In this document: in pieces, positions 3,442 to 13,637 of the stretch
How positions within the stretch are numbered: position 1 is the first letter of the stretch
Layout of the letters: every line of letters starts with the position of its first letter
Virus record (IMG/VR): IMGVR_UViG_3300035204_001893
Coordinates: 1-25,578 of that record
Strand: one strand, 5' to 3'
Source of the DNA: a virus
DNA length: 25,578 bases
Made by a program: the position numbers and the translations under genes
Notes under the pieces: generated by a model
Database searches by the model: none
What the model was told of the DNA's origin: nothing
The model's input: the letters and a program-made list of their open reading frames with translations, nothing else

Positions 3442-3747
3442 TTACTTTTCAACTCGTCGCCACTTTTTTTCATTATACAAAAATCTACTCACTGCATCTG
3501 AGAACTTTTTAACATCCTTCTCTGACTTGTCCCAAAAAAAAGCATGAGCAAACTCATGTATTGCTGTGTTTAGCTGAGTCTGATCTGTTCTGTGAGGGTT
3601 AATTTGTATCTTCGGGTTAGGCAAGCTTGGGTTAGTGCATACACCATCGCAATCTTCCCCGTAAATATTTTTGTTAGGTTTTCTGAAAACAACCTCCACT
3701 TCTTTACCGGAGGCATTTTTAAATTTAAAATTCTTTTTCTTTTTCAT
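3442..3747 (-). CDS. Small zincin-type putative metallopeptidase (HEFAH), 101 aa
   Basis: The motif TAIHEFAHAFFWD (HExxH at about residues 64-68) marks a zinc-metallopeptidase core. The basic N-terminus (MKKKKNFKFKN) and lack of a signal peptide indicate a cytoplasmic protein. Small HExxH proteins of this size, SprT- or M78-like, are common in large marine phages, but the substrate is unknown. The ATG overlaps the GlmS stop (ATGA, 3744-3747), so translation is coupled to glmS. The third zinc ligand is not evident; catalytic activity is an inference from the motif only. Confidence 0.7.
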   Translation of the reverse strand: MKKKKNFKFKNASGKEVEVVFRKPNKNIYGEDCDGVCTNPSLPNPKIQINPHRTDQTQLNTAIHEFAHAFFWDKSEKDVKKFSDAVSRFLYNEKKWRRVEK

Positions 3748-5570
3748 TCTACGGTTACTGATTTTGCTAAGTTTCTCGGCTTGTCCACGTTTAACTGTTT
3801 TATTTCAGCTAAATAAAGTGGAATTAACTGCATAGGTATAGTCGCTAGTATAGGTAAAATATAATCCTTAGCTTTAGGAATTTCAATTGAATAATCATAA
3901 CAATCTTTGGGGACTTTTTGACCACGGTGTTTTATCAAGACGACTCTACCCCTACGAGATTTTATCTCTTTCATCGATGTAATGTTCTTCTCTTTCATTC
4001 CCCTCTCTGGGGCAACAAAGATATACATATCACACATGTGAGCAATGGGGCCGTGTTTTAGTTCTCCGGTTGGATAGCCGTGAGTAGATATATAACACAA
4101 CTCTTTCAATTTTAGCGCGCCTTCTAGAGCTATCGGGTACATGTATTGCCTGCCTAAAAAGGTACAAGCTGACACCATCTGCTGCGCGCAAGCTACTTTT
4201 CGACAGTTCTCTTTACACAACTCAAGGGTGTCTTCAACTAGCTTGGGAAGATACCTCAGTTGTTTTATGTAATCTTTAGACTCTATTGAGCTTAACTTAT
4301 TTTTTCGACCCAACAATACGGCCAACATTAAAATTAAAGTTACTTGAGAGGTGAAGGCTTTGGTGGACGCTACCGATACCTCTTGACCTACTCTTTGATA
4401 TATTCCTTCTTCTACTTGCCTAGCTATGCTGCTCATGACCGTGTTTGTAATAGCTATGGCATTTACCCCTTTATCTTGGGCCTCTCGAACAGCAAATAAG
4501 GTATCTATGGTTTCACCTGATTGAGAAATTGCTATAACGAGTGTTCCTTCTTCGGTCGGATTGTTTTTATATCTATACTCCGAGGATATCTCTACGCTTG
4601 CGGGTATACCAGCAATGTTTTCCATATAATACTTACCCAGTAACCCGGCGTGATAAGCCGTACCACAACCCAAAAAAACGATGCGCTTAATTTCTTTATC
4701 TGTATCTATCCCGCCAAATACGACAGAGGAATAGTCCTTACTAAACCTACCTCTGGTCGAGTCCCTAATGCAGTCTGCTTGTTCGAAAATTTCCTTCTCT
4801 AAAAAGGTAGAATATTCACCGAGCTTCGCTTTCTGTTTGCGGGGTTTGATTCTCTTAGATAAGCTAAAATTGTCGATCTCCCTCTCTGTTTCCAAATTGT
4901 AAACCTTAAAATCTTTTTTTGTAATCCGCGTGATCTGATCATCTTCTAAATAAACTATTTTATTTACGTGCGAGGGTATGGCTGAGGCATCACTAGCTAA
5001 AAAATATTCATTATCGTGCACCCCCACTACCAATGGGGAACTTCTTCTTGCGCCGTATAAAACTTCCCCTGATTCATCTTTGAATAAAATAGCTAACCCG
5101 AAAGTTCCCTCGACCTGAGCAAGCGCGGATTTTATAGAATCTAAGGGGTCGTTAGTGGTCTTGTGGTAAAAGGAAATTAAATTAGCAAGAACCTCTGAGT
5201 CCGTATCTCCATAAAATTCATAATTATCCCTAAGTAAAATTTCTTTTATCTCCTCTGAGTTTTCTACAACCCCGTTGTGAACTAAGTAAACCTTCTCGTC
5301 TTGACAGTGATGTGGGTGAGTATTTTCGGTATTAACTTCCCCGTGTGTAGCCCAACGGGTATGTCCTACACCGCACCCTGAAGGAAATTTAATAATTTTG
5401 AGATCGGAAGGCGGACCAATAGTTTTGAAAAGTCTAAATTCATTCCAGCCTTTGTTGACTAGAGCTATCCCACAAGAATCGTACCCCCTATATTCTAAAC
5501 ACTTTAGACCGTCGTGTATTACGCTTCCTGCGTCACTACTCTCGCCTATGTAACCTATAATCCCGCACAT
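3744..5570 (-). CDS. glmS: Glutamine--fructose-6-phosphate aminotransferase (isomerizing), 608 aa
   Basis: Full length compared with bacterial GlmS (about 609 aa). The N-terminal nucleophile is MCGIIGYIG with Cys2. The glutaminase domain (about 1-240) carries GHTRWATHG, HNGVVENSEEI and GDTDSEV. The two SIS domains (about 290-600) carry GCGTAYHAG, ISQSGETIDTL, VASTKAFTSQ and HGYPTGELKHGPIA, and the protein ends in the canonical NLAKSVTVE. The enzyme makes glucosamine-6-phosphate from fructose-6-P and glutamine, the first committed step to UDP-GlcNAc. All key motifs are intact, so it should be active. A TATTAT box (5579-5584, minus) lies 8 nt before ATG with only a weak TTATAT at -35, so the mRNA may be leaderless. 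It leads the operon glmS-zincin-MptE-like. No ribozyme or riboswitch is visible in the 44 bp upstream. Confidence 0.97.
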   Translation of the reverse strand: MCGIIGYIGESSDAGSVIHDGLKCLEYRGYDSCGIALVNKGWNEFRLFKTIGPPSDLKIIKFPSGCGVGHTRWATHGEVNTENTHPHHCQDEKVYLVHNGVVENSEEIKEILLRDNYEFYGDTDSEVLANLISFYHKTTNDPLDSIKSALAQVEGTFGLAILFKDESGEVLYGARRSSPLVVGVHDNEYFLASDASAIPSHVNKIVYLEDDQITRITKKDFKVYNLETEREIDNFSLSKRIKPRKQKAKLGEYSTFLEKEIFEQADCIRDSTRGRFSKDYSSVVFGGIDTDKEIKRIVFLGCGTAYHAGLLGKYYMENIAGIPASVEISSEYRYKNNPTEEGTLVIAISQSGETIDTLFAVREAQDKGVNAIAITNTVMSSIARQVEEGIYQRVGQEVSVASTKAFTSQVTLILMLAVLLGRKNKLSSIESKDYIKQLRYLPKLVEDTLELCKENCRKVACAQQMVSACTFLGRQYMYPIALEGALKLKELCYISTHGYPTGELKHGPIAHMCDMYIFVAPERGMKEKNITSMKEIKSRRGRVVLIKHRGQKVPKDCYDYSIEIPKAKDYILPILATIPMQLIPLYLAEIKQLNVDKPRNLAKSVTVE

Positions 5571-6509: not shown

Positions 6510-6860
6510 TTAATTTATTTTAATATCCACAGGTTTAGATTCCTGCTTCTTGTTAATTTTAAGGTATAAAATACCATCTTCATAACGAGCTACGGGGGAG
6601 CTCGTGTCTGCCTTCTTAGGGACTTGAAAATTCTTAGCATATTTCGTGCCACCCTTCTCTGATGTTACTTTAAGTAAGCCATCCTCAAGGGAAACTTTAA
6701 TATCCTCTCTTTTTGTACCGGCTAAATTTACTTCAAATTGATAACCGTCTTTTGTTTCTTTATGATCCGGATTAGAATGATCAAGTTCTAAATCATCGAA
6801 TAAATTCCACAGACTATGTAGTCTGTCCGCTCTGTTGTTTAATCTAATTGTAGTTAACAT
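6510..6860 (-). CDS. Small heat-shock protein, Hsp20/alpha-crystallin family, 116 aa
   Basis: An alpha-crystallin domain fills residues about 32-116: DGYQFEVNLAGTKREDIKVSLEDG, LLKVTSEK, then ARYEDGILYLKINKK, which is the family's A-x-x-x-n-G-v-L signature. It is an ATP-independent holdase for unfolding proteins. The N-terminal region is short and the IxI tail reduced to VDIKIN, consistent with short phage forms found in cyanophages and other T4-like marine phages. There is no clear Shine-Dalgarno; a TTGAGT 35 nt upstream and an RpoN-like site (6874-6890) lie in the 31-bp gap to the previous gene. A terminator follows it. Confidence 0.93.
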   Translation of the reverse strand: MLTTIRLNNRADRLHSLWNLFDDLELDHSNPDHKETKDGYQFEVNLAGTKREDIKVSLEDGLLKVTSEKGGTKYAKNFQVPKKADTSSPVARYEDGILYLKINKKQESKPVDIKIN

Positions 6861-10397: not shown

Positions 10398-10856
10398 ATG
10401 ACAGTTTATGACGCCACCCACAAACTCTTTGAGTTTTTTACAAATAAACACGTGTTCTGCATGAATAAACATTTTAAAGATGTTGTTCCTATATCTGAAG
10501 AAGAAGAGGTAGAAAAAGCAACGCTAAATCTAGCTCTTGAAGACATGGCTAAAAACGAAATACTTAAACAAACTAAAATTGAAGGAGATGAATATTACAT
10601 TCTTGCGAGGCCAATGGAGTCGTTCGAGCAGAGCGTACCTCTTAACTATACAACAGCATTTATGGTCGCTCACGCGCTAAACGAATTTTGCGAGGCTATT
10701 GGGGACTACACTGACGCAGCAGAAGTGGGGAATATCTCTGAAAAGGACATTAAAAATCTAGTAATCTTAAATGAGCATCACAAAACCCAAATGACAAAAT
10801 TAATGCAGAAAGAGTCTGGATCTTTCGGGGACAATATTAATTTCGACAACCTCTAA
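10398..10856 (+). CDS. Hypothetical protein, 152 aa
   Basis: Soluble acidic protein. Residues about 1-75 (YDATHKLFEFFTNKHVF, VEKATLNLALEDMAKNEILK, GDEYYILARPME) look like a winged-helix or small mixed alpha/beta domain; the rest is helical (TTAFMVAHALNEFCEAIGD, NLVILNEHHKTQMTKLMQ). No family is recognised. A TATAAT at 10387-10392 is 5 nt before ATG without a good -35 (TGGCAT at 17 nt), so transcription probably starts at the ATG. It diverges from the deaminase unit over a 40-bp shared promoter region. Confidence 0.75.
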   Translation: MTVYDATHKLFEFFTNKHVFCMNKHFKDVVPISEEEEVEKATLNLALEDMAKNEILKQTKIEGDEYYILARPMESFEQSVPLNYTTAFMVAHALNEFCEAIGDYTDAAEVGNISEKDIKNLVILNEHHKTQMTKLMQKESGSFGDNINFDNL

Positions 10857-10894: not shown

Positions 10895-11311
10895 GGGAGC
10901 GTACTGGATTCGATTTAGATTCTTACGCAAGACAGCAAGTAGAGGATGATGGTTGGCCTCTTAAAATACCCATTAACAACACATATGCCAATAGCAATAT
11001 TGACATGGAGTTGGCTCCTTCGTTAATCGAAGCTGACGAGATTCTCGCCAAGTTCGGTTACGCTGAGGAGGAAGCCCTCCAGATGGCAGCATAAGTCCTG
11101 CCCCGTCCTACTCCGGATGCTCGTTAAGGAGATAGGGCGTCGACAACGAGCAAAAAAACTAGGAAGGGTGAGGAGTCTAGTCTAAATAAAGTGCCTCCAA
11201 CCTCGTGTGTAGTTGTCAGTGATGAAGCACGAAAATTAACACTGACTAAACTTGTAGCGGTCTGAGCCGATGGTTCTAAAGACGCGGGTTCGACTCCCGC
11301 CGCTTCCACCA
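10895..11311 (+). ncRNA. ssrA: tmRNA (one-piece) with a 35-codon tag
   Basis: 5' GGGAGCGTACTGGATTCGA and 3' GACTAAACTTGTAGCGG...GACGCGGG-TTCGACT-CCCGC with CGCTTCCACCA form the tRNA-like domain: the acceptor GGGAGCG pairs with CGCTTCC, and CCA is encoded. GAGG...GGCCTC at about nt 49-67 is PK1. A later H-type pseudoknot pairs 11106-11116 with 11130-11141 and GCTCGTT with AACGAGC. The tag ORF begins at GCC 10987 (nt 93, as in E. coli at 90; A at -4 conserved) with residues ANSNIDMELA, and ends EEEALQMAA before TAA 11092-11094. This is 35 codons against 10 in E. coli; the extra length accounts for the 417-nt size. tmRNA with SmpB rescues stalled ribosomes and tags the product for proteolysis. 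Confidence 0.93.
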
Positions 11312-11319
11312 ATTTTATT

Positions 11320-11733
11320 ATGAACCCATTATCCATAAAGACCGCGAGGAAATTACTGGCAAATGTTAAAGCTGGTCAATCCCGCAATAAGCAAAGAAAG
11401 TCTTTGGGTAATAATGTTCGTGTTGAAGACGTAGAAATTACTCATCAAGATATCATTGATAAATTCAACGAGCAAGAAGGTCTATGTTTTTATTCGAAGC
11501 TCCCCCTGCAAGAAGAATATAATTATGTTTACAAGCATCCATTTGCGATAAGCGTAGAGAGGATTGATAACAGGAAGGGTTACCTAATGGATAACGTGAG
11601 GTTAACTAGAAGGCTATTTAATCTTGGCAGGGGCAGTTACGACGGAGACTTTCAGGGAGTCATGGACGAGCTTGTTTCAGAATTATCAAGAAAAGAACGG
11701 TGGAATAATCTTGACAACTCAGCAAAAGAATAG
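11320..11733 (+). CDS. HNH-type endonuclease-like protein, 137 aa
   Basis: The core EGLCFYSKLPL (about residues 51-61), then FAISVERIDNRKGYLMDNVRLTRR and FNLGRGSYDGDF, resembles small phage HNH/homing-type nucleases: C...L, S-V-E-R-I-D with the acidic/basic pair, GY..DNV.L and FN.GR. The N-terminus is basic (KTARKLLANVKAGQSRNKQRKS), as expected for DNA binding. The classic first HH pair is not clear, so catalytic competence is uncertain. ATG is 8 nt after the tmRNA CCA end, without a Shine-Dalgarno; 3' processing of the tmRNA would free a nearly leaderless mRNA. A structured non-coding region follows it. Confidence 0.6.
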   Translation: MNPLSIKTARKLLANVKAGQSRNKQRKSLGNNVRVEDVEITHQDIIDKFNEQEGLCFYSKLPLQEEYNYVYKHPFAISVERIDNRKGYLMDNVRLTRRLFNLGRGSYDGDFQGVMDELVSELSRKERWNNLDNSAKE

Positions 11734-11906
11734 GACACTTCAAACAGTTCTTTTAAATAGCGGTGAATAGCGCGAAAAACGTTTAGACACCTCAAAGCCC
11801 GTAAAAAGGCACCAATCAAGTTGACCTAATAAGTCACACGTTACTGCGGGAGCGCGCGGCGTTTGAGATTGGAGAAATTCCAGAAACTTAAATCCTTTAC
11901 GAAGGA

Positions 11907-11921
11907 AAAGCTAGGAGTCAT
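11907..11921 (+). repeat. 15-bp direct repeat, copy 1 (AAAGCTAGGAGTCAT)
   Basis: Identical to 12142-12156. Both copies are preceded by AATCCTT...GGAAAA, so a module of about 35 nt is duplicated inside the candidate RNA. Confidence 0.85.
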
Positions 11922-12141
11922 TGCCAAAAGAAAAGTTCCACCGCTGAAATTAAAAGAATATAGTACATCGACTTAGATGGTTACGAGCTACCGAGTTCAA
12001 ACCTAAAAGCCTTACGAGGCGGGGGAGAACCGAGACTGCGAGAGCGGGGGATGCGAAGAACTGAAGTAGCTATCTAAGTTTAAAATATGCCTGTTTTCTT
12101 AATAGGGCTTCCTATTGCTTAATCCTTACTTCGGAAAATTT

Positions 12142-12156
12142 AAAGCTAGGAGTCAT
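12142..12156 (+). repeat. 15-bp direct repeat, copy 2 (AAAGCTAGGAGTCAT)
   Basis: Identical to 11907-11921. Its AGGAG (12148-12152) is also placed as a Shine-Dalgarno for the micro-ORF at 12161. Confidence 0.85.
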
Positions 12157-12160
12157 CTTG

Positions 12161-12220
12161 GTGATATTCTTAATATTTCTTGAGTTAATTCTCACATTAG
12201 GCTATACTAATTTAGTATGA
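12161..12220 (+). CDS. Hydrophobic micro-ORF coupled to the GT32-like gene, 19 aa
   Basis: GTG 12161 (or TTG 12158) opens VIFLIFLELILTLGYTNLV with TGA 12218-12220 overlapping the next ATG (ATGA). AGGAG ends 8 nt before the GTG. The peptide is almost entirely hydrophobic, like a TM helix or leader peptide. The downstream gene has no Shine-Dalgarno of its own, so coupling is plausible. It competes with the leaderless promoter reading of the same bases, since that promoter lies inside this ORF; both could operate on different transcripts. Confidence 0.4.
   Translation: MIFLIFLELILTLGYTNLV
12180..12208 (+). promoter_or_regulatory. Promoter of the GT32-like gene
   Basis: -35 TTGAGT (12180-12185), 17-nt spacer, -10 TATACT (12203-12208), ATG 9 nt later, predicted +1 about 12215. 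A perfect 7-bp dyad ATACTAA-T-TTAGTAT (12204-12218) covers the -10 and the start codon. The TGTAAAT block is absent. Confidence 0.6.
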
Positions 12221-12858
12221 TTCCTAAAATAATCCATCAAATATGGCTAGGCTCACGCAAAAGGCCAAGCGACCATATGAAAACTTGGCCTGACCTTCAC
12301 CCCAGTTGGCAATATGTATTTTGGGACGAGCAAACAATTAAAGCCTACTTTCCGGACGGATTAATAAATCAAGACCACTTTGATTACGCTACCGCACCTT
12401 GCGCTAAGGCTGACATTCTTAGGTACGAAATTCTACTTAAATTTGGCGGTATATACATAGATGCCGACACGATTTGCTTGAGACCGTTAGATGATCAGTT
12501 TTTGTCTCCAAAAGTTTGGGCGACCTTTGAGAACGAAAAAACAAGAGGGGATTTATTAGCAAATGGTTTTATTGGTGCAGAAAAAGGTGATAAATTTATT
12601 GAGTTAATGGTCCAAGACTTAAGTAAAAGATGTAATTTTAAGTATGCAACCGAGATTACGGAAGAGTATTTTTCTTGGCTTAATTACGGACCGGTATTCC
12701 TTACTGAATCCGTATTAAGATATAGGCCAAATATAATCACATTCCCTTCTCATTATTTTATACCTAATCATTATAGTGGTGTATCTTACGATGGTCCAGA
12801 TAAACCTTACGGTGATCATGACTACTCACATGAATCAAACACTACGCGCGTACCATGA
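12217..12858 (+). CDS. Glycosyltransferase with DXD motif (GT32/OCH1-like), 213 aa
   Basis: MIPKIIHQIWLGSRKRP at the N-terminus, HPSWQYVFWDE, then CAKADILRYEILLKFGGIYIDADTICLRP (about residues 67-95) are hallmark segments of the Gly_transf_sug/GT32 family; the DXD is Asp89-Ala-Asp91 in YIDADT and binds the metal-nucleotide sugar. The protein is slightly short but both motifs and the later NGFIGAEKGDKF region are complete. It transfers a hexose to an unknown acceptor. It overlaps the next glycosyltransferase by ATGA and has its own promoter. Confidence 0.9.
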   Translation: MIPKIIHQIWLGSRKRPSDHMKTWPDLHPSWQYVFWDEQTIKAYFPDGLINQDHFDYATAPCAKADILRYEILLKFGGIYIDADTICLRPLDDQFLSPKVWATFENEKTRGDLLANGFIGAEKGDKFIELMVQDLSKRCNFKYATEITEEYFSWLNYGPVFLTESVLRYRPNIITFPSHYFIPNHYSGVSYDGPDKPYGDHDYSHESNTTRVP

Positions 12859-13637
12859 ACGTTACGGTCTTATTTTTTAGTACAAATAGGCTGGAGTATC
12901 TTATCCCTACATTAAAATCATTTGAAGACAATATTGATTTTACTGATTGTAATGTTCATAAAATATTTATAGACGATTACCCCAAGGGTAGAGATGATTC
13001 TATATTTCAAAATATAAAAAAGGATTATAATATTGATGAATTGATATTACATAAGCAAAACCAAGGACAAAGTGTTACTTGGAAAGAGGCGTGGAGTATA
13101 ATACCCGAGGACACTAACTACATTTGGCATCAAGAAGACGACTTTATCTTTCCCCAAAAAATTATAATAAGAGATTTAATAAACTTAATCCAGCAGTGCC
13201 CGAAAACCCTTAGTCAAGTATGTCTCAAAAGGCAAGTTTGGTACAAAGGGGCGAGTGATTTTATAAAAAGAATAGAATCCGGAGAAGTTGGTGAAGAGTT
13301 AGAGTTCCCAGTGAATGGAGTTAATAAAAAAATAATTTTACATCAAGATTACTTTAATGCTAACCCTTGCCTGTACCCCGTTTGGGTGACTAAAGAGAAG
13401 TATTCATACAACCCCCAAGAATCAGTAATTGCTACAGACTTTAGAAACAAGTACGGTAATTCTGTTTTTTCTGCTATATATGGAGGAAGGAAAGACGACC
13501 ATCTGTGTCATCACATAGGCCACTACACTCAAGGTCAAAAAGTTAGCGAAAACGAACCGGGTTGGGATTGGCTCAAGGACTACGACCCAAGCAAAAAATA
13601 CCACTCGAGAGGGCACTTACTAGAATACGAAGAGTAA
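12855..13637 (+). CDS. Glycosyltransferase family 2-like, GT-A fold, 260 aa
   Basis: MNVTVLFFSTNRLEYLIPTL with later FIDDYPKGRD and HKQNQGQSVTWKEAWSII matches the first half of GT-A transferases, where N.G......N is usual. YIWHQEDDFIF (about residues 91-101) supplies the acidic metal site (EDD). The second half holds VWYKGASDF and the acceptor region. The end KKYHSRGHLLEYEE is polar. It starts inside the previous gene (ATGA). It probably acts on the same glycan as the GT32-like enzyme. Confidence 0.8.
   Translation: MNVTVLFFSTNRLEYLIPTLKSFEDNIDFTDCNVHKIFIDDYPKGRDDSIFQNIKKDYNIDELILHKQNQGQSVTWKEAWSIIPEDTNYIWHQEDDFIFPQKIIIRDLINLIQQCPKTLSQVCLKRQVWYKGASDFIKRIESGEVGEELEFPVNGVNKKIILHQDYFNANPCLYPVWVTKEKYSYNPQESVIATDFRNKYGNSVFSAIYGGRKDDHLCHHIGHYTQGQKVSENEPGWDWLKDYDPSKKYHSRGHLLEYEE

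Follow-up and report, generated by a model that had tools for sequence, protein, structure and literature searches.

A first-pass annotation of the 25,578-base uncultured virus record analysed here (the window, that is, the whole stretch of DNA) had put forward a region of about 425 bp, next to an HNH gene and a tmRNA gene, as a candidate structured RNA. The questions raised by this locus are whether the region is indeed a gene for such an RNA and, if so, what kind of RNA it encodes. The region contains no open reading frame of at least 60 amino acids, as had been claimed. The accompanying argument that the density of stems is not expected by chance found no support in the single sequence, because the region's sequence in the window folds no better than its dinucleotide shuffles (minimum free energy −105 vs. 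−99.0 ± 5.8, z = −1.04; 16 of 100 shuffles equally good). Folding energy is uninformative here, and the decisive evidence for an RNA gene comes from comparison with relatives.

The RNA gene and its relatives

Phage NrdA used as bait returned 80 loci, about 20 of which were matched in a single-sequence nhmmer search with positions 11734-12216, each a few kb upstream of nrdA. Iterated searches (nhmmer and covariance models) and two pattern scans extended this to a set of 27 distinct sequences including the window, all from uncultured phage contigs, which we refer to as family A; its most divergent members (e.g., L303 and L304) are different enough for structure testing. The RNA is present as a single copy in all seven records with a match. 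Named phages and plasmids gave no family A match by distant blastn, and a pattern scan of cellular genomes gave only unrelated loci among the matches listed. The 14-mer repeat AAGCTAGGAGTCAT as bait produced chance matches only, and the HNH protein and the gene 10398 protein, as baits against viral contigs, recovered no relatives. As far as searched, family A appears to be restricted to a clade of uncultured tailed phages.

Based on these homologues, the region is almost certainly a conserved noncoding gene for a structured RNA, and it is preceded by a promoter-like sequence:

11711-11739, plus strand: promoter-like sequence, TTGACA (11711-11716), 17-base spacer and GACACT (11734-11739), ending 6 bases before the RNA
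11746-12157, plus strand: predicted noncoding RNA gene of family A, about 412 nt, found through iterated nhmmer and covariance model homologues, with its extent taken from the alignment

The first-pass annotation had placed the start at 11734; since 11734-11739 is the −10 element, the RNA more probably begins at about 11746, and the position of the promoter-like sequence fixes this 5′ end. The −35 element TTGACA falls inside the end of the HNH gene. The site was not listed in a generic promoter scan of the window alone, and a sequence of the form TTG..-N16-18-TA...T lies at a similar distance upstream of most homologues (strongest in L071, L074, L164, and L304), with TTGACA- or TTGCTT-like −35 and TANNNT-like −10 elements mostly 6–8 bases before the RNA. 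We infer that the RNA is transcribed from its own sigma-70-type promoter.

A search of Rfam 15, which had been proposed as a check, matched no family in the flagged region, either at the gathering threshold or with E-values up to 10, two plastid matches being disregarded as meaningless, and none in the homologues at permissive E-values. The models for tmRNA, RNase P, SRP, 6S, and group I/II introns were all unmatched, with the best permissive match being to group II (E 7.9) on the other strand. The suggestion that this is a large structured RNA of a new kind, belonging to none of the classical families, is upheld by these results and by the compensatory changes in the homologues (below). The RNA does include a pseudoknot (PK1, below). 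No publication describing the family A RNA was found in the open-access literature. Judged against Rfam 15 and open-access papers, this is a new RNA family, of which unpublished or closed-access descriptions could exist.

A link to retrons or DRT systems was considered separately and rejected, as no reverse transcriptase (PF00078) was found in 12 phage records of 84–180 kb, possibly fragments, with positive controls.

Fold of the family A RNA

The 5′ domain was analysed in an alignment of 23 sequences (A1) with a hand-written structure comprising P2, PK1, P5, P6, P7, P8, and P9. The predicted elements with their positions in the window, together with a pairing of the 5′ end (P1), are as follows:

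11746-11752, plus strand: P1 5′ strand AGTTCTT, putatively pairing with AAGAACT (12056-12062) in the P15 loop, as a pseudoknot with P11
11759-11765, plus strand: P2 5′ strand AGCGGTG, pairing with CACCGCT (11939-11945) and closing the 5′ domain
11798-11801, plus strand: PK1 5′ strand CCCG, pairing with CGGG (11847-11850) and crossing P5
11812-11817, plus strand: P5 5′ strand CCAATC, pairing with GATTGG (11867-11872)
11823-11835, plus strand: P6 hairpin GAC-CTAATAA-GTC, with double changes in all four pairs
11838-11862, plus strand: P7, ACGT (11838-11841) with GCGT (11859-11862), with the PK1 strand CGGG in its loop

Across this domain, 92.9% of the pair cells are canonical; shuffles reach 79.0 ± 0.8, and slid partners never exceed 43.9%. 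Double changes occur in 23 of the 36 pairs (126 double-change cells vs. 39), and the covariation score of 0.426 compares with 0.18 for shuffles and a maximum of 0.131 for slid partners. Because the structures come from the very sequences being counted, these values should be judged against the slid and shuffled controls. RNAalifold, run without a supplied structure, also recovers P5, P6, and P7, and a tree-based covariation scan (a simplified R-scape) places pairs of P6 (11823-11835 and 11824-11834), P5, P7, and P11 at the top of its ranking, six of the seven top pairs being canonical.

Two crossing pairings had been proposed as pseudoknots from the window sequence. The pairing CCAATC/GATTGG is real in the comparative sense, with double changes in six of six pairs and 100% pairing (P5), but it is an ordinary helix that does not itself play the crossing role; rather, it is crossed by CCCG/CGGG. 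CTCAAA/TTTGAG had to be rejected, as it is not kept in homologues (CACAGG stands opposite GTTGAG in the L108 group). The pseudoknot PK1, on the other hand, is directly supported by the alignment: it is 100% paired, and CCCG/CGGG changes on both sides to UCCG/CGGA in three sequences (L075, L302, and L163). For P2, three pairs show double changes and four of the rest are invariant.

The 3′ domain was treated in a second alignment (A2) with a structure containing P11, P12, and P15, in which 90.1% of pair cells are paired vs. 70.5% and the covariation is 0.590 vs. 0.246. The predicted elements located in the window are:

11972-11979, plus strand: P11 5′ strand, pairing with 12070-12078; the main segment of the long-range helix proposed earlier
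12009-12020, plus strand: hairpin GCCU-UACG-AGGC, within an insertion found only in the window and L074 in alignment A2
12052-12068, plus strand: P15, TGC (12052-12054) with GTA (12066-12068), whose loop bears the P1 3′ strand

P11 is kept across relatives despite completely different sequences. In a swap test comparing each phage's own arms with the arms of other phages, which is independent of alignment columns, cognate arms pair at −7.87 kcal/mol and non-cognate arms at −3.52 kcal/mol (0 of 2000 permutations). The test is conservative, because the pattern captured the 3′ arms of L071 and L303 wrongly, and it is the cleanest structural evidence that we have. The three-segment helix that had been drawn at 11971-12079 is retained in this main segment (11972-11979/12070-12078), but its AGCTA/TAGCT segment is not kept, the place being used by the hairpin 12052-12054/12066-12068. 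The two UACG hairpins noted earlier (11894-11905 and 12009-12020) are borne out, with the latter lying, like the GAGA hairpin, within the insertion. Two further hairpins, P13 and P14, were weak (P14: 443 of 5000 permutations) and were not retained. The pairing of the 5′ end with the P15 loop (P1) is moderately supported, at least four pairs being kept in 15 of 16 distinct sequence pairs, with 117 of 5000 permutations as good.

Taken together, these comparisons show a predicted fold made up of P2, PK1, P5 to P8, P11, P12, and P15 and its conservation among relatives. The compensatory changes by which the first-pass annotation had suggested judging its candidate are present in the homologues, P11 included.

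A second RNA family and the twin tails

In relatives without family A, about 500 bases in the same slot, which is fixed upstream of the dNMP-kinase/sigma-factor/nrdA block in the phages of both kinds, hold a second conserved structured RNA, family B. It is found in at least 29 loci (e.g., L110:6511-6878, L113:6428-6808, and L096:7071-7450), together with family A in none, with double changes pronounced both in hairpins and in long-range helices. Family B has no Rfam match above chance, and the family A covariance model (R1) gave no credible match in family B records, so that homology of the two could not be established by this route. The families nevertheless resemble each other in their slot, a similar length, an upstream promoter-like sequence, a duplicated 3′ element, a pairing of its first tail with an internal site (X), and A-rich stretches such as GAGGAAAA. 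The duplicated element reads CCTC-A-GAGGAAAAGGG in family B (L080) and CCTC-CCAA-GAGGAAAAAGG in family A. Unlike in family A, the two copies in family B are adjacent, flanking a G+C-rich hairpin, and both tails lie downstream of X. That the two families share an ancestor is plausible.

A CsrA-type sponge acting through GGA motifs was also considered for these RNAs and discarded, as GGA is not kept in family B.

In both families, the element consists of a small hairpin or stem, an A-rich run of the GGAAAA type, and a variable tail. In the window, the two copies and X are arranged as follows:

11894-11919, plus strand: duplicated element copy 1, hairpin CCTT-TACG-AAGG (11894-11905), AAAAG, and tail CTAGGAGTC (11911-11919)
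12102-12118, plus strand: site X, ATAGGGCTTCCTATTGC, complementary to the copy 1 tail; the copy 2 tail is identical in this phage
12124-12157, plus strand: copy 2 of the duplicated element, closing the RNA on its 3′ side, with tail CTAGGAGTC (12146-12154)

The tails are alike within a phage and different between phages, with a longest shared stretch of 10.2 vs. 4.6 in family A and 6.0 vs. 3.7 in family B (0 of 5000 permutations in each). Recent gene conversion as the sole cause of this likeness is disfavoured, since the hairpins next to the tails differ in sequence between the two copies. Tail 1 pairs with X in family B, where no permutation of 5000 was as good. Both the tails and the X segments were selected manually, by eye, which weighs most on the family A result (63 of 5000 permutations as good, with X between P11 and copy 2), and support for the tail 1–X pairing in family A is modest. 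For tail 2, pairing with X is not significant in either family (606 of 5000 permutations in A and 353 of 5000 in B), and the second tail could be kept for a reason other than X pairing.

It is possible to draw these features into a single model. The RNA would fold into a compact body, in which tail 1 of the duplicated 3′ element holds X in cis. Since X can pair with only one tail at any one time, the presence of an identical second tail points to either competition in cis or pairing in trans; that is, tail 2 might compete for X as part of a two-state switch, or it might capture the X of a second molecule, leading to self-association. On this basis, we tentatively suggest that family A may be a scaffold-type RNA that, in the course of infection, assembles with itself or changes between conformations, comparable to GOLLD, ROOL, and OLE and a member of none of them. 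As a more speculative extension, families A and B might be the two branches of a single new class of phage RNA, one whose members self-assemble or switch conformation and which occupies the same genomic slot throughout a large clade of uncultured phages; the twin tails would then take turns on a single internal site, either in one molecule or between two.

Alternatively, the RNA might act as a sponge or decoy, its two identical 3′ elements (hairpin, GGAAAAAGG, and tail) titrating a host or phage protein or RNA. Such a role would suit an RNA with its own promoter-like sequence and with two copies of the element, matching within a phage, in both families. We nevertheless consider it unlikely, as strongly variable tails and the tail 1–X pairing fit internal pairing better than a fixed external binder, and the elements account for only the smaller part of the conserved structure. 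It is quite unlikely that the RNA is instead a ribozyme or otherwise processes itself, with X guiding recognition of tails 1 and 2 and the transcript being cut at one or both. No Rfam ribozyme or intron model matched, no conserved catalytic site was identified, and pairing of tail 2 with X is not significant. In favour of this reading, one site resembles a guide in being complementary to two sequences that are the same, the conserved RNA ends in copy 2, and a compact fold is suggested by the pseudoknot together with conserved A-rich loops.

Genomic slot and likeness to known RNAs

The usual order in relatives is dCMP deaminase, a gene like 10398, the RNA, dNMP kinase, sigma factor, an SSB-like gene, glycosyltransferase, and nrdA. 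The window departs from this order: gene 10398 is separated from the RNA by the tmRNA and the HNH gene, and the RNA from the kinase by two glycosyltransferase genes (12217-13637, one of the two being a glycosyltransferase by Pfam). A relative of the second of these genes occurs in the same place in L074.

The constant position upstream of the dNMP kinase, sigma factor, and nrdA block raises the possibility of a cis-regulatory leader of these genes, such as a riboswitch or attenuator, and the G+C-rich hairpin between the two tails of family B is terminator-like. The gene immediately downstream varies, however, being a glycosyltransferase in the window, a sigma factor in L163, and a tRNA-Gly in L164, and the downstream genes appear to have promoters of their own. 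In L302, TTGACA-N17-TATAAT lies just downstream of the RNA, and the window has a similar candidate in the same place:

12180-12208, plus strand: promoter-like sequence TTGAGT-N17-TATACT, 3′ of the RNA and before the next gene (12217)

About one match of this kind is expected by chance, and the site is consistent with a separate transcription unit. A terminator-like sequence (hairpin and T-run) also follows the RNA directly in L304. Taking both sides together, a leader function is unlikely. Because the RNA appears to form its own unit with a varying downstream gene, it would act in trans, and we consider it very probable that family A represents a stand-alone gene for a trans-acting, pseudoknotted noncoding RNA of about 410 nt, of a family outside Rfam 15.

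In L164, the tRNA-Gly gene (L164:1310-1382) follows the family A RNA directly and is possibly co-transcribed with it.

The first-pass annotation had drawn attention to the HNH gene and the tmRNA as neighbours. The HNH protein has no tblastn match in the relatives' loci, where the RNA is present in a conserved slot of its own, and the tmRNA matches in relatives fall mostly at other places; both neighbours are for these reasons best regarded as incidental. The tmRNA gene (10895-11311) is intact and separate, and it is the sole tmRNA match in the window, the arrangement at 10895-11733 suggesting that the tmRNA was relocated together with the nuclease gene. We give almost no credence to the idea of a mobile element or intron tied to the HNH gene (an intron remnant or an IscB-type guide RNA): this gene (11320-11733) does end 12 bases before the RNA, but relatives' loci free of HNH carry the RNA, the tmRNA is intact, and no Rfam intron or HEARO model matched.

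Several neighbouring genes deserve mention in their own right. The HNH protein has weak PHROG matches to an Srd anti-sigma factor and a decoy of host sigma70 (E 6e-4 and 0.0085). Gene 10398-10856 encodes a small protein and, in most phages, immediately precedes the RNA, whether this is of family A or of family B. The protein has no Pfam or PHROG match; its AlphaFold model is confident (pLDDT 90.5), with a winged-helix-like secondary structure, and the PDB structures that match it best, of winged-helix and MarR types, do so weakly (E 0.02). The protein is a possible partner of the RNA. Elsewhere in the window are a phage-encoded GlmS-like aminotransferase with SIS and GATase domains (3744-5570) and an Hsp20-like protein judged from sequence only (6510-6860).

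Compensatory changes over most of the fold, a fixed locus, and a replacement RNA family in sister phages point to a core function in this group of uncultured phages. To our knowledge, large structured RNAs are uncommon once messengers, introns, and the translation machinery are set aside, and phages have yielded few of them. For the self-assembling or switching scaffold that we tentatively favour, the coevolving twin tails offer a testable mechanistic handle.

The first-pass comparison with GOLLD and ROOL holds as a likeness in kind, but neither covariance model matches family A. GOLLD is a large, highly structured phage RNA, often exceeding 800 nt and often near tRNA genes, that forms homo-oligomers (PMC12286853). 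Family A is likewise a predicted large structured phage RNA, but it differs from GOLLD in its length of about 410 nt, its nucleotide-metabolism locus, and its duplicated tail element with site X. Proximity to tRNA genes of the GOLLD type is seen in L164 (tRNA-Gly downstream) and, with the tmRNA upstream, in the window, whereas most homologues occupy a slot among protein genes. ROOL, which comes from phages or prophages, has multiple pseudoknots, often lies close to tRNA islands, and assembles as an octamer (PMC12286853); it gave no Rfam match at a permissive threshold, and its architecture differs from that of family A. OLE, an ornate RNA of about 600 nt found mostly in Bacillota, is a dimer and part of a ribonucleoprotein complex (PMC12286853; PMC12054373); the fold predicted for family A is likewise ornate, and OLE gave no Rfam match. 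Intermolecular pairings occur in GOLLD, ROOL, and OLE alike (PMC12286853), and family A itself can be placed only in the broad, loose class of large structured RNAs from phages.
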